A DNA stretch of 51,578 nucleotides from Nitrososphaerota archaeon (GTDB taxonomy: Archaea; Thermoproteota; Nitrososphaeria_A; Caldarchaeales; Wolframiiraptoraceae). Each line of letters starts with the position of its first letter. The stretch's first letter is position 1. Below, one piece after another: positions 10,231-18,692 of this stretch. A program made the position numbers and the translations under genes. The notes beneath the pieces were generated by a model. That model was given only the letters and a program-made list of their open reading frames with translations, was not told where the DNA came from and did no database searches. The DNA is taken from contig JAGGTD010000063.1 in assembly GCA_021163925.1 (NCBI GenBank), forward strand, positions 1 to 51,578, read 5' to 3'.

Positions 10231-10461
10231 TTAAGGCTCTTCATATTCATTCAACCTCTTCTTAGACTTCTTCGGGATGAGCCCATGCGCGGCCGTTGCG
10301 CCGAGACCGAGGCCAGCGATTGATAGGGCGTAAGAGAATAATGAGAGGAAGAGGCTGCTCGCAATGATCTTAATCACCATTAAGAAGGATAATATGAAGC
10401 CGACTAGGACGAATATGGCGCCGAGGGCTATCTCCAAGAAGATTTCATCTCTCTTGGACAT
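10231..10461 (-). CDS. Small membrane protein, unknown function
   Basis: 76-aa ORF with two hydrophobic segments, overlapping the start of the transporter operon end. Confidence 0.55.
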   Translation of the reverse strand: MSKRDEIFLEIALGAIFVLVGFILSFLMVIKIIASSLFLSLFSYALSIAGLGLGATAAHGLIPKKSKKRLNEYEEP

Positions 10462-11449
10462 AGAGCCAACAGCTCACGAAATGATCTTTTTCATACTCAA
10501 TTTCAGGAGGCTCTTTTTCATCGCATAATCCTTTGATCTTGTGGACGCATCTTGGATGGAATCTGCAACCCTTGGGTGGATCGATTAGGCTTGGAGGCTC
10601 TCCCGGGGGAAGCTCCCTGATGATGAATCTATTTCTAGCGTCTGGGTCTGGGATCGCGGCGAGGAGGGCTTTAGAATATGGGTGCAGGGGATTCTTAAGA
10701 AGCTCTTTCACCGGAGCTTTCTCCACGATCTTTCCAGCATACATAACGAATATCCATTCTGAGAAGTAGCGTGTTGTGGAGAGGTCGTGGGTGATGTAAA
10801 TTATGCTTATATCGTGTAGTTTTTGGAGCTTTTTGAGTAGTGTTAGTATCTCGATTCTGACCGATGCATCTAACATCGACACGGGTTCATCAGCAATTAT
10901 CAGCTTTGGGTTTAGGATCATCGCCCTCGCGATGACGACCCTTTGCTGCTGGCCCCCGCTCAGCATATGCGGATACTTGTTCAGGAAGTCCTCGACGGGC
11001 GTCAACCTCACCTCCGTTAGAGCTTTGTAAATTCTCTCACGCCTCTCTCTCTTATCCACCTTGTTTATGATCATCGGCTCTTCTAGAATTCGCTTGACGG
11101 TCATGAAGGGTGGTAGGGCTCCAAAGGGATCTTGCTGAACAAAGCCCGTCTGTCTTCGATACCATCTCATCAGCTTCTTATCAGAATTCACGATCTCCCT
11201 ACCATCGAATATTATCTTTCCGCTGGTAGGCTCTTCAAGTCCTAGGATCGTCCTGCCGAGCGTGGTCTTCCCGCATCCGCTTTCCCCAACGAGCGATATG
11301 GCTTCCCCTCTTCTTAGGTCGAAGCTCACGCCATCTAGGGCCTTGACATAGACGGTCTTCCCAAAGATGCCCTTTCTAATGGAATACCATTTTTTGAGAT
11401 CTCTCAAGGAGAGCAGTATCCTATCCTCCGCCATGCTATACCACCTCAC
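10445..11449 (-). CDS. Oligopeptide/dipeptide ABC transporter ATP-binding protein (DppF-type)
   Basis: GESGCGKTTLGR, LSGGQQQRVVIARAM, LIIADEPVS and C-terminal oligo_HPY-type cysteines. Confidence 0.95.
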   Translation of the reverse strand: MRWYSMAEDRILLSLRDLKKWYSIRKGIFGKTVYVKALDGVSFDLRRGEAISLVGESGCGKTTLGRTILGLEEPTSGKIIFDGREIVNSDKKLMRWYRRQTGFVQQDPFGALPPFMTVKRILEEPMIINKVDKRERRERIYKALTEVRLTPVEDFLNKYPHMLSGGQQQRVVIARAMILNPKLIIADEPVSMLDASVRIEILTLLKKLQKLHDISIIYITHDLSTTRYFSEWIFVMYAGKIVEKAPVKELLKNPLHPYSKALLAAIPDPDARNRFIIRELPPGEPPSLIDPPKGCRFHPRCVHKIKGLCDEKEPPEIEYEKDHFVSCWLYVQER

Positions 11450-12399
11450 CTAGCATAGAGCCAACACCTGACATAATTTCCATCTTTCAACGATACTAGA
11501 GGCGGTTCCTCCGAGCACTTCTCTGTTCTGAAAGGACATCTATCGGCGAATCTACACCCCTTCGGAGGATTTATCAAGCTCACTGGAGCGCCGGGGATAT
11601 ACTCTGGCTGCTTGTCCTCTCTTAGGGATGGAACGCTTGCCATGAGCTTCTGTGAGTATGGGTGGAGGGGGGATTTATAGAAGCTTTCCGCGTCGTTTAA
11701 CTCTACTATCTGCCCTCCATACATGACCGCCACCTTATCCGCGAGTTCGCTGGATATGCTCACGTCGTGGGTGATCAGTATGAATGTGAGATTAGACTCC
11801 CTCTTTATCCTCTTAAGCATGTTCATGATGCTGGCTTGAATTAAGACATCGAGCGCGGAGGTAGGTTCGTCCAATATCACTATCTCCGGATTCATTATCA
11901 ACGCCATGGCTATGATCACCCTCTGCCTCATCCCACCGCTTAATTCAAATGGGTATCTATCCATGAAGGCTTGGGGGATTCCGACGAGAGAGAACAATTC
12001 CCTAACTCTTTCGAGGGCTTCCTTCTTATCTATAGACTTGTGGATTAATAATGGTTCGGCGACCTGTTCACCTACTTTGATGACGGGGTTTAGCGAGTTT
12101 AATGCGGCTTGTGGAACCATGGAGATCCTTTGCCAGCGTATAGTCTTCCTAAACTCCTCATCGCTCAGCTCCATCAAGTCCGAGCCATCTAAATAGATAT
12201 GTCCCTTGAAGAGCTCGACGTTCCTCGGCAGAAGCCTCATCAAACACTTGGCCAACGAGCTTTTCCCGCAGCCTGATTCACCTATCAGCGCCAAACTCTC
12301 CGCCTTCTTTATGCTGAAGGATACGCCGTCAACCGCTTGAAGGGTGCCCATCCTTGTCCGGTAATACAGGTATAGGTCTTCTACTTTGAGGAAGCTCAT
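11446..12399 (-). CDS. Oligopeptide/dipeptide ABC transporter ATP-binding protein (DppD-type)
   Basis: GESGCGKSSLAK, LSGGMRQRVIIAMAL and PPKGCRFADRCPF. Confidence 0.95.
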   Translation of the reverse strand: MSFLKVEDLYLYYRTRMGTLQAVDGVSFSIKKAESLALIGESGCGKSSLAKCLMRLLPRNVELFKGHIYLDGSDLMELSDEEFRKTIRWQRISMVPQAALNSLNPVIKVGEQVAEPLLIHKSIDKKEALERVRELFSLVGIPQAFMDRYPFELSGGMRQRVIIAMALIMNPEIVILDEPTSALDVLIQASIMNMLKRIKRESNLTFILITHDVSISSELADKVAVMYGGQIVELNDAESFYKSPLHPYSQKLMASVPSLREDKQPEYIPGAPVSLINPPKGCRFADRCPFRTEKCSEEPPLVSLKDGNYVRCWLYAR

Positions 12400-13748
12400 A
12401 CCTCCTTCAACCTCGGGTTGAATATCTTGTCTAGGGAGAGGCCTAGGAGGGCGAATCCGAGAGCAGTTAAGATCAGTAGGAAGGATGGTTCAAGAACCCA
12501 ATAGAAGTATCCCTTATAGAGGGCACCCGCGGAGAATGCATCATCTATTATCTTACCCCACGTTGGGGCGACTGGGTCTCCAAGCCCAAGTATCGCCAGC
12601 GCGGCCTCAAGGAAGACGAAGTCGGGGACCGAGAGCACTAGAGATGGGATTATTGTGGGCAAGATCTTGGGGATTATGTAGAGGAAAATTATTCGCAGAC
12701 TGCTCGCCCCATAGGATCTCGCCGCGTCGATATAGGGGAATTCCTTCACTTGGAGGAATACGGCTCTATAGGTTTTAACCCCGGAGCCGAAGATGCTCAA
12801 CGCGACGATCACGAGGAGCATGGTCCATATATTAAGCTTATAGAATACGGCGATCATTATTAGAATTGGCAGGAATGGCAAGGTCATGTTTATCTCGGTG
12901 AGTCTCTGGAGGATGAAGTCGACGCGGCCTCCGAACCAAGCGCTCGTTGCCGCAATGATCATCTGCAGCACGGCTATGGAGAGGGCGGCGGTCATTCCGA
13001 AGGATAGTGCTATCGGCGTCCCCCATAGGAGCGCTATCATTAAATCTCTTCTGAGGTGATCGGTTCCCGCCATCCCATAGACCTTCCCATATACCACTAG
13101 CTTCACGTTTACATCGGAATCTTTCTCAAATAACATCCCCTCAATTGCCATGCGATACTTTCCTTTCAATGGGGAGACCGTTTCTTTCTTCAGAATAGAT
13201 TTATCCTCTTTTGCGAATAGCGCTATCTCGGTAGTTATTCCATACTCTGGTTCTTCTCCAAGCTTCTCCCGTATATGATTTATTAACGTCTTCGCCAGCT
13301 CTTCATCGTTTGAGATATAGTAGGCGCCTTTCTCGCTGAGCGTGAGATCTTTCAGTTTAAATTTTTCTCCATTCGGTTTCACCCAATAAACCGTTAACTG
13401 TGGGGGTGTGCTCGTGAATTTCGAAGAGTAGAATAGGTTTATCTCACTGGGGAAGTCATCGTACTCGTAGTTGAATGTAAGCTCCATTATCACCTTACTC
13501 ATAGTCTTTCCGAAGGGCACGACGATCTTCGTAACCCCTCTCTGCTTCTCAGCCGTATCCAAGATTATCGTCTCCGGAAGCTTCTTTGGCAGGAATAAAT
13601 TCATCCACGATGGAAGAGCATTTCGCGGATTATCGAGCCAGATCCCCTTCCCAGCCTGCCAGAGATATGTCGCCCGCTCATAGGGTATAGTGGTTATGGT
13701 GTAGATCGAGATTCCGACCAAGATGAGAAGGATTGCTATACCCGCCAC
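12396..13748 (-). CDS. Peptide ABC transporter permease (DppC-type) with large extracytoplasmic insert
   Basis: Permease core DAARSYGASSLRIIFLYIIPKILP; long soluble segment after TM1; GTG start. Confidence 0.85.
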   Translation of the reverse strand: MAGIAILLILVGISIYTITTIPYERATYLWQAGKGIWLDNPRNALPSWMNLFLPKKLPETIILDTAEKQRGVTKIVVPFGKTMSKVIMELTFNYEYDDFPSEINLFYSSKFTSTPPQLTVYWVKPNGEKFKLKDLTLSEKGAYYISNDEELAKTLINHIREKLGEEPEYGITTEIALFAKEDKSILKKETVSPLKGKYRMAIEGMLFEKDSDVNVKLVVYGKVYGMAGTDHLRRDLMIALLWGTPIALSFGMTAALSIAVLQMIIAATSAWFGGRVDFILQRLTEINMTLPFLPILIMIAVFYKLNIWTMLLVIVALSIFGSGVKTYRAVFLQVKEFPYIDAARSYGASSLRIIFLYIIPKILPTIIPSLVLSVPDFVFLEAALAILGLGDPVAPTWGKIIDDAFSAGALYKGYFYWVLEPSFLLILTALGFALLGLSLDKIFNPRLKEV

Positions 13749-13809: not shown

Positions 13810-14859
13810 TCACGTCACCCCCAATCTTACGCGTGGATCTACTATGGCATACACTATGTCGAGCACGAAGACGGTGATCGCCAGCAGGTAGGCGTAGATC
13901 ACCACCGATCCGATTATCACGGGGGAGTCGAGCATGATCGCGGCCATGTATAGGAGGGTTCCTAGCCCGGGCCAGTTGAATACCCTCTCGGTGATCACGG
14001 CTCCCATCCAAGAGCTTATGAGGGTGAGGGAGAGATCCGTTATTATTGGAGGCAGGGTCGGCTTCAAGATATATCGCCGCTCTATTATCCTCGGAGGAAG
14101 CCCCTTAGCCTCTGCCATCTCAACATAGTCCTCCTGCGAGAACATCAGGAAGAAGGTTCTACGTATATAGGTTTGTATGAAGGTGTATGCCACCAGCCAA
14201 GAGAGGACCGGCAGGATCATATGCTTTAAGACGCTTAGAGCGTAATGAAATGGATCTTTGGGCGGGGGCACGTCCACGAGCCCGCCATAGGGGAGGATGT
14301 GGAGGGTGGCTGCGAATATCAATATCAGGAATATCCCATAGAACCAGCCCGGTATGGATGAGAGGGGTGAGAGGGCGACTATGAGCTTATCGAGCTTGCT
14401 CCCATATTTTCTCGACGCATAGAGCCCGAGGGTGATCGAGATAAAGAAGAGAATTAGGTTTATGCTGGTGAATAGGAGAACTGTTGCGGGAAGTCTCTCT
14501 AGGATTATGTTTCGCACAAGCCTCGATCCAGTATCGCTCGTAAGGTATAGAGATCTCCCAAGATCGAGGGTTAGCGCCCTCACCAAGTATTGGTGGCTTC
14601 TAAATATGAAGGGAGCGTCTAGTCCGAGGCGCTTTATCTCCTGCTGGTAAAGTCCTTCGATCAATTCTGCCTTCTTGCTGGGGGGCAGGTTTTTGTACGC
14701 GGGATTTTGGTTTACTAATACGCCTATCCGGAAGCGGACCTCGCTCTTTATTATCTGATCCACATAACCGCCCATATTAGCTATGAGGATCGTTATATAG
14801 ACAGCCACAACTACGACCGCGAAGAGACATATCCCTCTCAGCGCGGCGTATCGTAGCAT
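13810..14859 (-). CDS. Peptide ABC transporter permease (DppB-type)
   Basis: DYVEMAEAKGLPPRIIERRYILKPTLPPIITDLSLTL and GAVITERVFNWPGLG. Confidence 0.9.
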   Translation of the reverse strand: MLRYAALRGICLFAVVVVAVYITILIANMGGYVDQIIKSEVRFRIGVLVNQNPAYKNLPPSKKAELIEGLYQQEIKRLGLDAPFIFRSHQYLVRALTLDLGRSLYLTSDTGSRLVRNIILERLPATVLLFTSINLILFFISITLGLYASRKYGSKLDKLIVALSPLSSIPGWFYGIFLILIFAATLHILPYGGLVDVPPPKDPFHYALSVLKHMILPVLSWLVAYTFIQTYIRRTFFLMFSQEDYVEMAEAKGLPPRIIERRYILKPTLPPIITDLSLTLISSWMGAVITERVFNWPGLGTLLYMAAIMLDSPVIIGSVVIYAYLLAITVFVLDIVYAIVDPRVRLGVT

Positions 14860-14992: not shown

Positions 14993-17680
14993 CTACTTCT
15001 GCCTTCTCACTAGGGCTACTGCTGCGATCGCTATGGCTATTATGGAGATGACTATCGAGATTATCAGCATGGTGTTCAACGTCGAGATCTGGCCCTTCAG
15101 AGATCCGACATCCGCCTCGAGGGAGCTCACCGCATCCTTCAGAGGCTCTATACCCGCCTTCGCCCTCGCCTCAACCTCACCGAGCTTTCCACTGAGATAG
15201 TCCTCTAGGCCGAGCGCCGTGAAGGAGGTCTCTTTGATGACTGGGATGCTGACGAGCTTCGAGGTCACGGCTACGAGGAGCTTAGTCGAACCCGGTGGGA
15301 GCGCTGAGGTATCGGCTGCGCTGAGTCCGACAGACCACAATCCATCCTCGACCGCCTTCGCCGTGCCGACGGCCGTCACCCTGCCCTTGGCATCCACGAT
15401 TATGTATTTCACGGAATCAATATCGGAGATCTTATATGGCTCGCCCTTGAAGGTCACCTTGACGTTGAAGGCGGATCCTAGTCCAGAGATGACGTTGCTC
15501 GGGCCTTCGACCGCCACCTCAGGTATCTTAGGCTCCCCGAAGATCATCCATTTATCGGCGGTATCCGGATATTCCCTATTCGCCTTTATCGTGATTACGT
15601 GTGCGGTTGCGTCGACGCTCTCTAGGTAGAATGGGCCGTCTCCGATCCAGAAGTGCCCCTTCTCCTCATACCACTTCTTAAGGGCCTCATATCTGGCCAC
15701 AGCCTCGTCTTCCGTGATATACTTTCCAAGCACCTCCTTGTATGGTATATACTTCGTTGCTATGGCTTCGTCGAGCATCCTCTTCAGGGTGTCTAAGGTT
15801 GCTCCAGTTATGTAGTTCAGTCTCTCGACTCCGAGCTTATCGGCCTTGGCGGCTGTGAAGGCAGCTAGCCCCTTCTCCTCGGCGAGGAGACCTATCGTTA
15901 TCATGTGCCAAGGAGCCGGCCCATAATCTCCTTGTGGATAGAACCATGAAGCTACGTTGGCGGCTATCCACTCGGCGTCCGGGTAGACGTTATCGGTATA
16001 GAGTTCTAGGACGAGCGGTTTTTTGCTCACTATCTTGAATCCCTTGAAGTACTCCTTGAATGCCTTAAATGTCTCGAGGTAAGATTCGTCGAAGACCGCG
16101 CTGGCGTTGTCAGCCCTATCAAAGGTTATTATATAGTTGAATATGAAGTCGGCGAGCGAGATCTTCGTGCCATCATGCCACTTATGCTCGAATAGATCAT
16201 CTCTGAAGTGTAAGACCACCTTGGCCTTAGCCGTGAGACCATCTGGAGCGGTCAGTATCTTATGCTCCTTAGCATCCCAGCCATACCATGCGTCGGTTGG
16301 AACCTCTATCTTATCTACGAACTTGAGGGAGAGCCAGTCGAGCGTCTTGGTCACGGGGATTCCGCGCTTGACGTAGACCTCGGCCTTCACGACCTTTAGA
16401 GGCCAGTAGAGACCGGTGTATGGGTCGGGCATTAGCGGAGGATCATAGGTTGCTCGATAGATCATCGTGTCATAGACCCAGTCGCTTCCGCCGAGCGGGT
16501 TCCAGGGCTCGATCGGGATCTTAGCCTGCGTTACTATCTTCGCAGTTCCCCCAACCTTCCCCTCAAATCTCAGCGTATATGGCCAAAGCCTGGCGCCATA
16601 GAATCCTCCAGCCAGGTCATATGCTTGCTTAACCCCCTTCCTCGCAACCCATGCGGTGAGGCTATTCACAAGCCATACTCTGACCGAGTCCTTCATCGAT
16701 AGTTCAAGGGCCTTGGCCATGAGCTCATTCCTCTCTTCCCAAGATGCGTAATCCTTGGTCGCCAACCTCTTAGCGACCTCATCGAACTCTGGAGCAGGCT
16801 TATATGCCTGCCAGAGTGGGACGGGTATTCCTCGAGGCGTGTAGAAGAAGTCGAAGTTATCCGACTCATCTCTGGCTATAACCGTCGTCACCCATCCTCC
16901 AGTATAGATGTGCCACTTGCCCTCGGCTGGGTCTCCGAAAAGCCAGAGCGGGGCGGCCTCCTTGCTCGTCTTATACATCCTCTCTACTGTGAACCCGAGC
17001 TTCTCGAGCTGCGATGCAACATAGTCTCCTATCTCCTTCCTCTCATCCTCAACTCTTATGATGAACTTTATCGTGACAGGCTTGCCCTTATACTGCCACT
17101 TACCGTTAACTAGCTCGGCGCCGAGCTTCTTCATCTCCTCGGTGATGATCGCCTTAGCCTTCTCAAAGTTGTAGCTATACTTGAGTTCAAGCTTCTTCGC
17201 AACGTCTATGAGCCGTGCATAGTCTGGGAAGGACGGGGTTATGGCGAGGTATCTCGGGACGGCTAAGCCTCCGCAAAGCTCGTCTGCGATATACTTTCTA
17301 TCCACGAGATAGTTCATAGCCTCCCTTATCTTCGGGTCCCAAAATGGGTTCAGCTCTCCGGTTGCTGGGAACTCGGGTCCCACCGGGTTGAAGGTGAGTT
17401 CGTTATATGAGCCGTAGGACATCGCATACCAGAGATTTGGCGACGCCTTGACCTTCTTGAAGAGCTCTGGATCGGTTAGACCATAATAATATAGGTGTGC
17501 TTCTCCAGCCTCGAGCATACTGATGGCCGTGGCATCATCAGCCACCGAGGAAAAGACAACTTCGTCTACCCAAGGCCCTCTCGGCGCCTCCTGAGCGGCG
17601 GTCGGCAAACTCATCGTTGGGATTATCAGCATGAATGCTACAAGAATCGAAAGTACTAGGAGAAACCTTCCATTTTTCAT
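14993..17680 (-). CDS. Family 5 extracellular solute-binding protein with C-terminal coiled coil and TM anchor; lobes in permuted order
   Basis: Signal peptide; DPKIREAMNYLVDRKYI and HDGTKISLADFIFNY motifs in inverted order; C-terminal TM; adjacent to dpp-type genes. Confidence 0.9.
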   Translation of the reverse strand: MKNGRFLLVLSILVAFMLIIPTMSLPTAAQEAPRGPWVDEVVFSSVADDATAISMLEAGEAHLYYYGLTDPELFKKVKASPNLWYAMSYGSYNELTFNPVGPEFPATGELNPFWDPKIREAMNYLVDRKYIADELCGGLAVPRYLAITPSFPDYARLIDVAKKLELKYSYNFEKAKAIITEEMKKLGAELVNGKWQYKGKPVTIKFIIRVEDERKEIGDYVASQLEKLGFTVERMYKTSKEAAPLWLFGDPAEGKWHIYTGGWVTTVIARDESDNFDFFYTPRGIPVPLWQAYKPAPEFDEVAKRLATKDYASWEERNELMAKALELSMKDSVRVWLVNSLTAWVARKGVKQAYDLAGGFYGARLWPYTLRFEGKVGGTAKIVTQAKIPIEPWNPLGGSDWVYDTMIYRATYDPPLMPDPYTGLYWPLKVVKAEVYVKRGIPVTKTLDWLSLKFVDKIEVPTDAWYGWDAKEHKILTAPDGLTAKAKVVLHFRDDLFEHKWHDGTKISLADFIFNYIITFDRADNASAVFDESYLETFKAFKEYFKGFKIVSKKPLVLELYTDNVYPDAEWIAANVASWFYPQGDYGPAPWHMITIGLLAEEKGLAAFTAAKADKLGVERLNYITGATLDTLKRMLDEAIATKYIPYKEVLGKYITEDEAVARYEALKKWYEEKGHFWIGDGPFYLESVDATAHVITIKANREYPDTADKWMIFGEPKIPEVAVEGPSNVISGLGSAFNVKVTFKGEPYKISDIDSVKYIIVDAKGRVTAVGTAKAVEDGLWSVGLSAADTSALPPGSTKLLVAVTSKLVSIPVIKETSFTALGLEDYLSGKLGEVEARAKAGIEPLKDAVSSLEADVGSLKGQISTLNTMLIISIVISIIAIAIAAVALVRRQK

Positions 17681-17816: not shown

Positions 17817-18692
17817 TCATGCCATAAAAAATTTCGTCGAAAACGCGCAGACCAAGGCACCGATTAACGGTATCGGGAGACCTGGGACTATCCTCCTCCT
17901 TTGGAGAAGCAAAAGGATGATTGTGTAGCCCGCCACGATCGCGACGGTCGCGGCCACCGCCGGCGTCTCCCCGAGATTCCAAAAGATGGCTGAGATGGTC
18001 AGAGAGTAGAAGAAGAGGTCTCCAAGCCCTATAACCAGATCGCCCACCTCGACCGCCAACCCCCTGAGTATCGGGGCGTCTTGCTTGGTTAGGTGGGAGA
18101 GGTGTCCCTTGTAGACTGCGAGGATGTCGTAGATCGAGATTGCGGCCACGAGGACTAGGAAGGTCCAATATGGTATGCTCATCCCTATAACCCCTCCAGC
18201 TCCAGAAGCGATATAAGATGCGGCGAAGGACATGGAGATCTCCCCTTCTCTAAATATTAGAAGATATGTTATTATCGTCGCGGTGGCCGATGCTAGGGGT
18301 ATCCAGAGGTTGAAGATCCATGGATTTAGGGTTAGGGATAGGTTTAGGAGGTGGAGGGTTGTTATGCTGAATGAGACGAGCCAAGCGAGGCATGCCACCA
18401 AAATCCTCAAAATTCTAGGCTTCCTGCTCGCGATATAGAGTATGATTATGCTTGATACGGCTATCAACCCAATCACTATCAAGGTGTTTAGGTATGGCGC
18501 CGGGTTCGAGAGAGCTTGAGTGGGTGGAGCCGTTGGAGAAGGCTCTTCAACCGGAGTTATGATCGGCTTTGGAAAGACTATCCCTGCGCGTCCGGTGAGG
18601 AGCACGCAGATCCAAGTCATGATGATCGACAGGGCGACTGGGAGATAGGTTCTCGGAGTTATCCTCAACCTCCTAGCATCTTCCTCGCCCAT
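17817..18692 (-). CDS. Presenilin/signal-peptide-peptidase-like intramembrane aspartyl protease (A22-like)
   Basis: Multi-TM; SIYDILAVYKGHL (YD motif), VIGLGDLFFYS (GLGD motif), PGLPIPL in place of PAL. Confidence 0.8.
   Translation of the reverse strand: MGEEDARRLRITPRTYLPVALSIIMTWICVLLTGRAGIVFPKPIITPVEEPSPTAPPTQALSNPAPYLNTLIVIGLIAVSSIIILYIASRKPRILRILVACLAWLVSFSITTLHLLNLSLTLNPWIFNLWIPLASATATIITYLLIFREGEISMSFAASYIASGAGGVIGMSIPYWTFLVLVAAISIYDILAVYKGHLSHLTKQDAPILRGLAVEVGDLVIGLGDLFFYSLTISAIFWNLGETPAVAATVAIVAGYTIILLLLQRRRIVPGLPIPLIGALVCAFSTKFFMA

Follow-up and report, generated by a model that had tools for sequence, protein, structure and literature searches.

The window analysed here, a stretch of archaeal DNA 51,578 nucleotides long, carries at 14993..17680 on the minus strand a gene with an ATG start encoding an 895-aa solute-binding protein of family 5 (SBP-5), in which two large sequence blocks stand in permuted order. 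The first-pass annotation had placed the gene at these same positions, which hold, and its strand is corrected here to minus, the plus strand of the interval being interrupted by many stops. A predicted signal peptide (MKNGRFLLVLSILVAFMLIIPTMSLPTAAQ, aa ~1-30, 17591..17680) is read from the sequence, all relatives sharing a hydrophobic N-terminus. It is followed by block C (aa 36-376, 16553..17575), which a profile match to the Thermococcus protein TkOppA (PDB 7fi3) assigns to the canonical C-terminal part, TkOppA ~313-722, and then by block N (aa 377-705, 15566..16552), which the same match assigns to the canonical N-terminal part, TkOppA ~16-309. By the OppA domain borders, block C opens with about 50 aa of lobe I, continues through lobe II and closes with the final lobe-I strands. 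Downstream lie a beta-rich, putatively Ig-like segment whose pattern is conserved in relatives (aa ~713-810, 15251..15544), a predicted coiled coil with heptad-like sequence in relatives (aa ~815-866, 15083..15238), and a hydrophobic stretch that would form a C-terminal transmembrane (TM) anchor, followed by a basic tail (aa ~869-891, 15008..15076), all on the minus strand. The coiled coil and TM anchor of the earlier description stand, while its Ig-like assignment is one of pattern only, no Pfam family scoring above its cut-off over aa ~713-810. A single-sequence AlphaFold model of the whole protein reached a pLDDT of 39.8 and included, at low confidence, a helix at 826-892.

The gene heads a same-strand DppB-DppC-DppD-DppF operon, in agreement with the standard dpp arrangement first proposed. 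It is followed on the minus strand by a DppB-type permease (13810..14859; PF00528, E 2e-28; the same neighbour in relatives), a 450-aa DppC-type permease (12396..13748) in which PF00528 at aa 264-448 is preceded by about 200 extra residues, and DppD-type (11446..12399) and DppF-type (10445..11449) ATPases that each carry PF00005 and PF08352. The locus thus holds the DppB/C permeases (PF00528 twice) and oligo_HPY-type ATPases (PF00005 with PF08352 twice) of such an operon, and the order SBP-DppB-DppC-DppD-DppF is kept in most of the neighbourhoods of relatives examined. The extra ~200 residues of the window DppC match no Pfam family; long DppC proteins (439-584 aa) recur beside both permuted and canonical large SBPs, and the DppC of the L147 operon is of ordinary length (298 aa). 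In two genomes no recognisable dpp permease or ATPase lies within the ~18-19 kb examined around the permuted SBPs L239 and L241. Just upstream of the window operon, on the same strand at 17817-18692, is a membrane protease resembling signal peptide peptidase and presenilin (PF06550 above cut-off). The window's own genome also encodes a canonical SBP-5 (L001, G000:C13) with an N-terminal TM segment and a Thr-rich linker, and one organism therefore holds both orders and both anchoring sides.

The permuted order is evident from the motifs themselves, every one of which is present, in the order initially reported. Along the protein, VDEVVFSSVADDATAISMLEAGE (aa ~38-60), DPKIREAMNYLVDRKYI (~115-131) and WPYTLRF (~366-372) come before GGTAKIVTQAKIPIEPWNP (~377-395), HKWHDGTKISLADFIFNY (~499-516) and GDGPFYL (~680-686). 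The protein belongs to PF00496 (SBP_bac_5), with a sequence score above the family cut-off; model positions 145-351 match aa 35-268 (E 1e-29, 104 bits against a cut-off of 32.4), a co-linear match over the whole model, which characterises canonical members rather than the fold, is absent, and the N-terminal part of the model matches downstream of the 145-351 stretch. A phmmer comparison with TkOppA (E 1e-25) returned two significant stretches, aa 481-699 on 91-301 and aa 45-274 on 329-577 of 7fi3, which amounts to a swapped order. A family profile built from 23 collinear relatives that are 28-66% identical (alignment A1) extended this comparison (E 2e-84), placing 392-689 on 16-309, 39-304 on 313-599 and 333-378 on 677-722 of the 732 residues of 7fi3; the last stretch is weak alone but falls at the expected place. 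These stretches are complementary, do not overlap and together span nearly the whole canonical chain. The same Pfam model is swapped within single open reading frames of other genomes, as in an 822-aa frame that matches 145-352 and then 19-142. Because the blocks are complementary and without overlap, we read them as swapped halves of one domain, and by sequence comparison the window protein is one complete cluster C domain with its two blocks exchanged. PDB chains, Pfam, dozens of relatives and the gene neighbourhood bear out the claim of the first-pass annotation that a single SBP-5 domain, in an otherwise standard dpp operon, has truly been circularly permuted.

A search for the clade that carries this order recovered a family present across the phylum, in most of the genomes searched, rather than one peculiar to this operon. 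Matches to the window protein occur in 72 of 101 related genomes, many of them full length and collinear, and in 321 of a set of 397 phylum genomes that are at least 85% complete. By hand count about 240 of these 397 genomes, many of them complete, have a match below E 1e-80, and the matches listed below that value are each collinear over both blocks; at intermediate E-values the complete large-family proteins are all permuted except L080 and L083. Full-length collinear matches were found in most families sampled, single-contig genomes included, and the permuted order is kept in nearly all copies checked, mostly within dpp-type operons. A two-part HMM order test, in which canonical control proteins were correctly read as N-then-C, returned C-then-N at 135 large and 35 compact loci, many of which repeat the same gene. 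The compact subfamily (L085 and relatives), most of whose members are ~610-800 aa long, aligns with 4oet as 377-570 on 8-183 and 53-348 on 190-473. Four compact permuted proteins (L132, L139, L144 and L146) carry dockerin-like DxNxDGxxxxxD repeats in the C-terminal region. A further search of genome contigs added one partial relative (L033), and the viral contigs searched gave none. The plasmid search returned canonical bacterial proteins, each matched in two pieces by the compact query, with no permuted relative among the matches listed; the plasmids and viral contigs searched accordingly show no permuted relative outside the phylum.

The cut in the large subfamily lies at TkOppA ~309/313, and that in the compact subfamily, at 183/190 of 4oet, is equivalent to it, both groups of permuted proteins beginning at Pfam position 145. 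OppA is divided into domain I (1-44, 169-270 and 487-517), domain II (45-168) and domain III (271-486). Because profile positions 49-156 match OppA 219-320, and 271 is the first residue of domain III, the cut would fall inside lobe I, in a loop about 50 residues ahead of the hinge, and not at the junction between lobes, as the description of lobes in permuted order had implied. Lobe II is left intact by such a cut, and both inter-lobe crossings should survive. A close comparison of canonical L083 with permuted L077, which are 39-41% identical in the two swapped blocks, confines the cut to L083 402-415. A different cut is found in L147 (652-2703, G227:C4), a 683-aa singleton from one genome that adjoins a complete dpp operon: here the second half of block C is followed by block N and then by the first half of block C, which places the cut inside lobe II, and the tail consists of an MG2/Ig-like domain and a TM helix. 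The order of L147 could also be the product of misassembly.

Taken as a whole, the block order, the completeness of a single domain, the retention of the order across the phylum and the conserved DppB/C/D/F operon are direct results of computation, and we consider it highly probable that the window gene encodes a binding protein that is anchored in the membrane and serves an ABC importer of the dipeptide/oligopeptide type, its single cluster C domain being a naturally occurring circular permutant. The genome from which the window comes is an 81% complete draft broken into 78 contigs, and a misjoined contig might in principle have exchanged the halves of a normal gene; the chance of this is negligible, as the same in-frame order recurs in most phylum genomes searched, among them single-contig genomes and one relative at 66% identity, and the signal peptide and anchor sit intact at opposite ends. 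Relatives with the same order refute an assembly artefact. A length of 895 aa, exceeding that of bacterial DppA, might likewise suggest two complete SBP domains, or half-proteins of unrelated origin that became fused. This is very improbable: the two blocks align with complementary parts of one and the same canonical chain, each with its own part only and without overlap, no protein in the set carries either block twice, and the added length sits in the tail and in a domain that is long in canonical TkOppA (732 aa) too. Tests for a co-linear HMM alignment over the full length and for two complete tandem domains, either of which would have contradicted the initial reading, both came out negative: no co-linear alignment covers the protein, and the halves are complementary parts of one domain.

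In the circularly permuted protein the former C-terminus would lead directly into the former N-terminus, with the domain now beginning and ending in a lobe-I surface loop (TkOppA ~309/313). The fold would then resemble that of the canonical protein, with both hinge crossings kept, and the domain would be expected to close on its ligand, probably peptide-like, and to dock on DppBC as usual. The Ig-like, coiled-coil and TM tail could plausibly tether the domain, via the lobe-I loop, to the outer membrane face. Its probable origin is a tandem, in-frame duplication of the domain, flanked by a signal peptide and an anchor that both stayed in place, after which the outer halves would have been lost; no tandem-duplicated intermediate was seen at any locus scanned.

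How often the order has changed was addressed with two trees, of 101 rows and, more carefully, of 54 rows, both unrooted and built without bacterial diversity, in which blocks were rearranged to canonical order before alignment so that order itself was invisible to the tree. In both trees canonical L083 and L154 are nested in a permuted set with 100/99 support. TkOppA, represented by its printed alignment stretches 16-309 and 313-599 only, adjoins L083 and L154 and is likewise nested among permuted proteins, and canonical L080 lies elsewhere on a long branch, its position being less sure. The canonical-order proteins L083 (G089), L154 (G153) and L080 (G247) are candidates for a return to canonical order. 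A single clade of all permuted large proteins was rejected (AU p 0.0002), as was one of all permuted rows (p 9e-66), a less informative result, as that group also cuts across the deep split between large and compact subfamilies; these p-values are optimistic, because the groups were defined once the tree had been inspected for the first time. With one permuted clade rejected, at least one order change beyond the first is required, and three are possible. A canonical clade of L083/L154 and TkOppA was not rejected (p 0.385), and their returns may therefore be a single event. The order has changed more than once in the family, probably with reversals among the changes; because the tree is unrooted, the direction of change is one that we infer. 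On balance we slightly favour one ancient permutation followed by one to perhaps three returns (L083/L154, TkOppA and L080), with the lobe-II cut of L147 arising separately.

It is unlikely that the permuted order is instead ancestral in this archaeal group, with the canonical order derived from it. Permuted rows do occupy the facing sides of the large and compact subfamilies in the unrooted tree, with canonical rows inside, but that tree lacks both a root and bacterial diversity, the matched bacterial family-5 structures are canonical and favour a canonical root, and canonical order inside the large clade would still require at least one later reversal. That the permuted order evolved as an adaptation to anchoring of the C-terminus in the membrane is a tentative suggestion and on present evidence doubtful. 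Among proteins with a complete end, a C-terminal TM helix is present in 57 of 67 permuted and 10 of 23 canonical ones, and the window's genome holds the N-anchored canonical SBP L001 beside the permuted one. The tree, however, offers only three independent contrasts, which are too few, many canonical proteins are C-anchored (L083, L148 and L151), and permuted L070 appears to be N-anchored.

TkOppA belongs to the same large subfamily as the window protein, sharing segments missing from bacterial OppA, but has the canonical block order. Bacterial DppA, OppA and NikA share the Pfam family (SBP_bac_5, cluster C) and its motifs; unlike the window protein they are canonical in order, ~500-550 aa long and devoid of the C-terminal Ig, coiled-coil and TM tail. 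One member of the permuted family seems already to have been studied biochemically as OppA_Ap. That peptide-binding protein of Aeropyrum pernix is reported to have a pyroglutamate at Q32 and a nick at E569-G570; it reportedly associates with the membrane, is released nicked, and carried a hexapeptide along on purification. Numbered from the third Met of its open frame, L076, which we take to be the A. pernix copy of the permuted family, shows Gln32 directly behind the signal peptide and a Glu-Gly pair at 569-570, presumably the same landmarks, so that the link rests on two residue positions. OppA_Ap would then share the permuted order, with a Thr-rich tail where the window protein has its Ig-like segment and coiled coil.

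Very few binding proteins are known to be natural circular permutants, and TpMglB-2 (Tp0684) of cluster B is the one that we found. This glucose-binding protein binds its ligand and changes conformation, and its authors considered the permutation possibly linked to anchoring (PMC4990184). Like the window protein it is an ABC-type binding protein whose chain is naturally permuted; it differs in its cluster B fold, its bacterial origin and a cut elsewhere that needs a fourth hinge crossing (PMC4990184). Our literature search, with subscription papers mostly outside its scope, returned no description of a permuted family-5 or cluster C binding protein. Also new, as the alignments and trees present it, is the canonical order inside the permuted clade (L083/L154, TkOppA and L080).

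The permuted cluster C family occurs in most sampled genomes of the phylum, apparently including those of ammonia oxidisers and hyperthermophiles, which means that co-linear annotation models capture its proteins only partly. As the order changed more than once within the family, both orders are workable; if it switched repeatedly in the way slightly favoured above, circular permutation would be a recurrent and reversible evolutionary mode of this fold. Close pairs that differ in order, such as L083 and L077 (~40% identical), make the effect of chain order directly testable for folding, high-temperature stability, hinge motion, anchoring and permease docking, and the order switches in the family trees provide a natural test of how far the fold tolerates rewiring.
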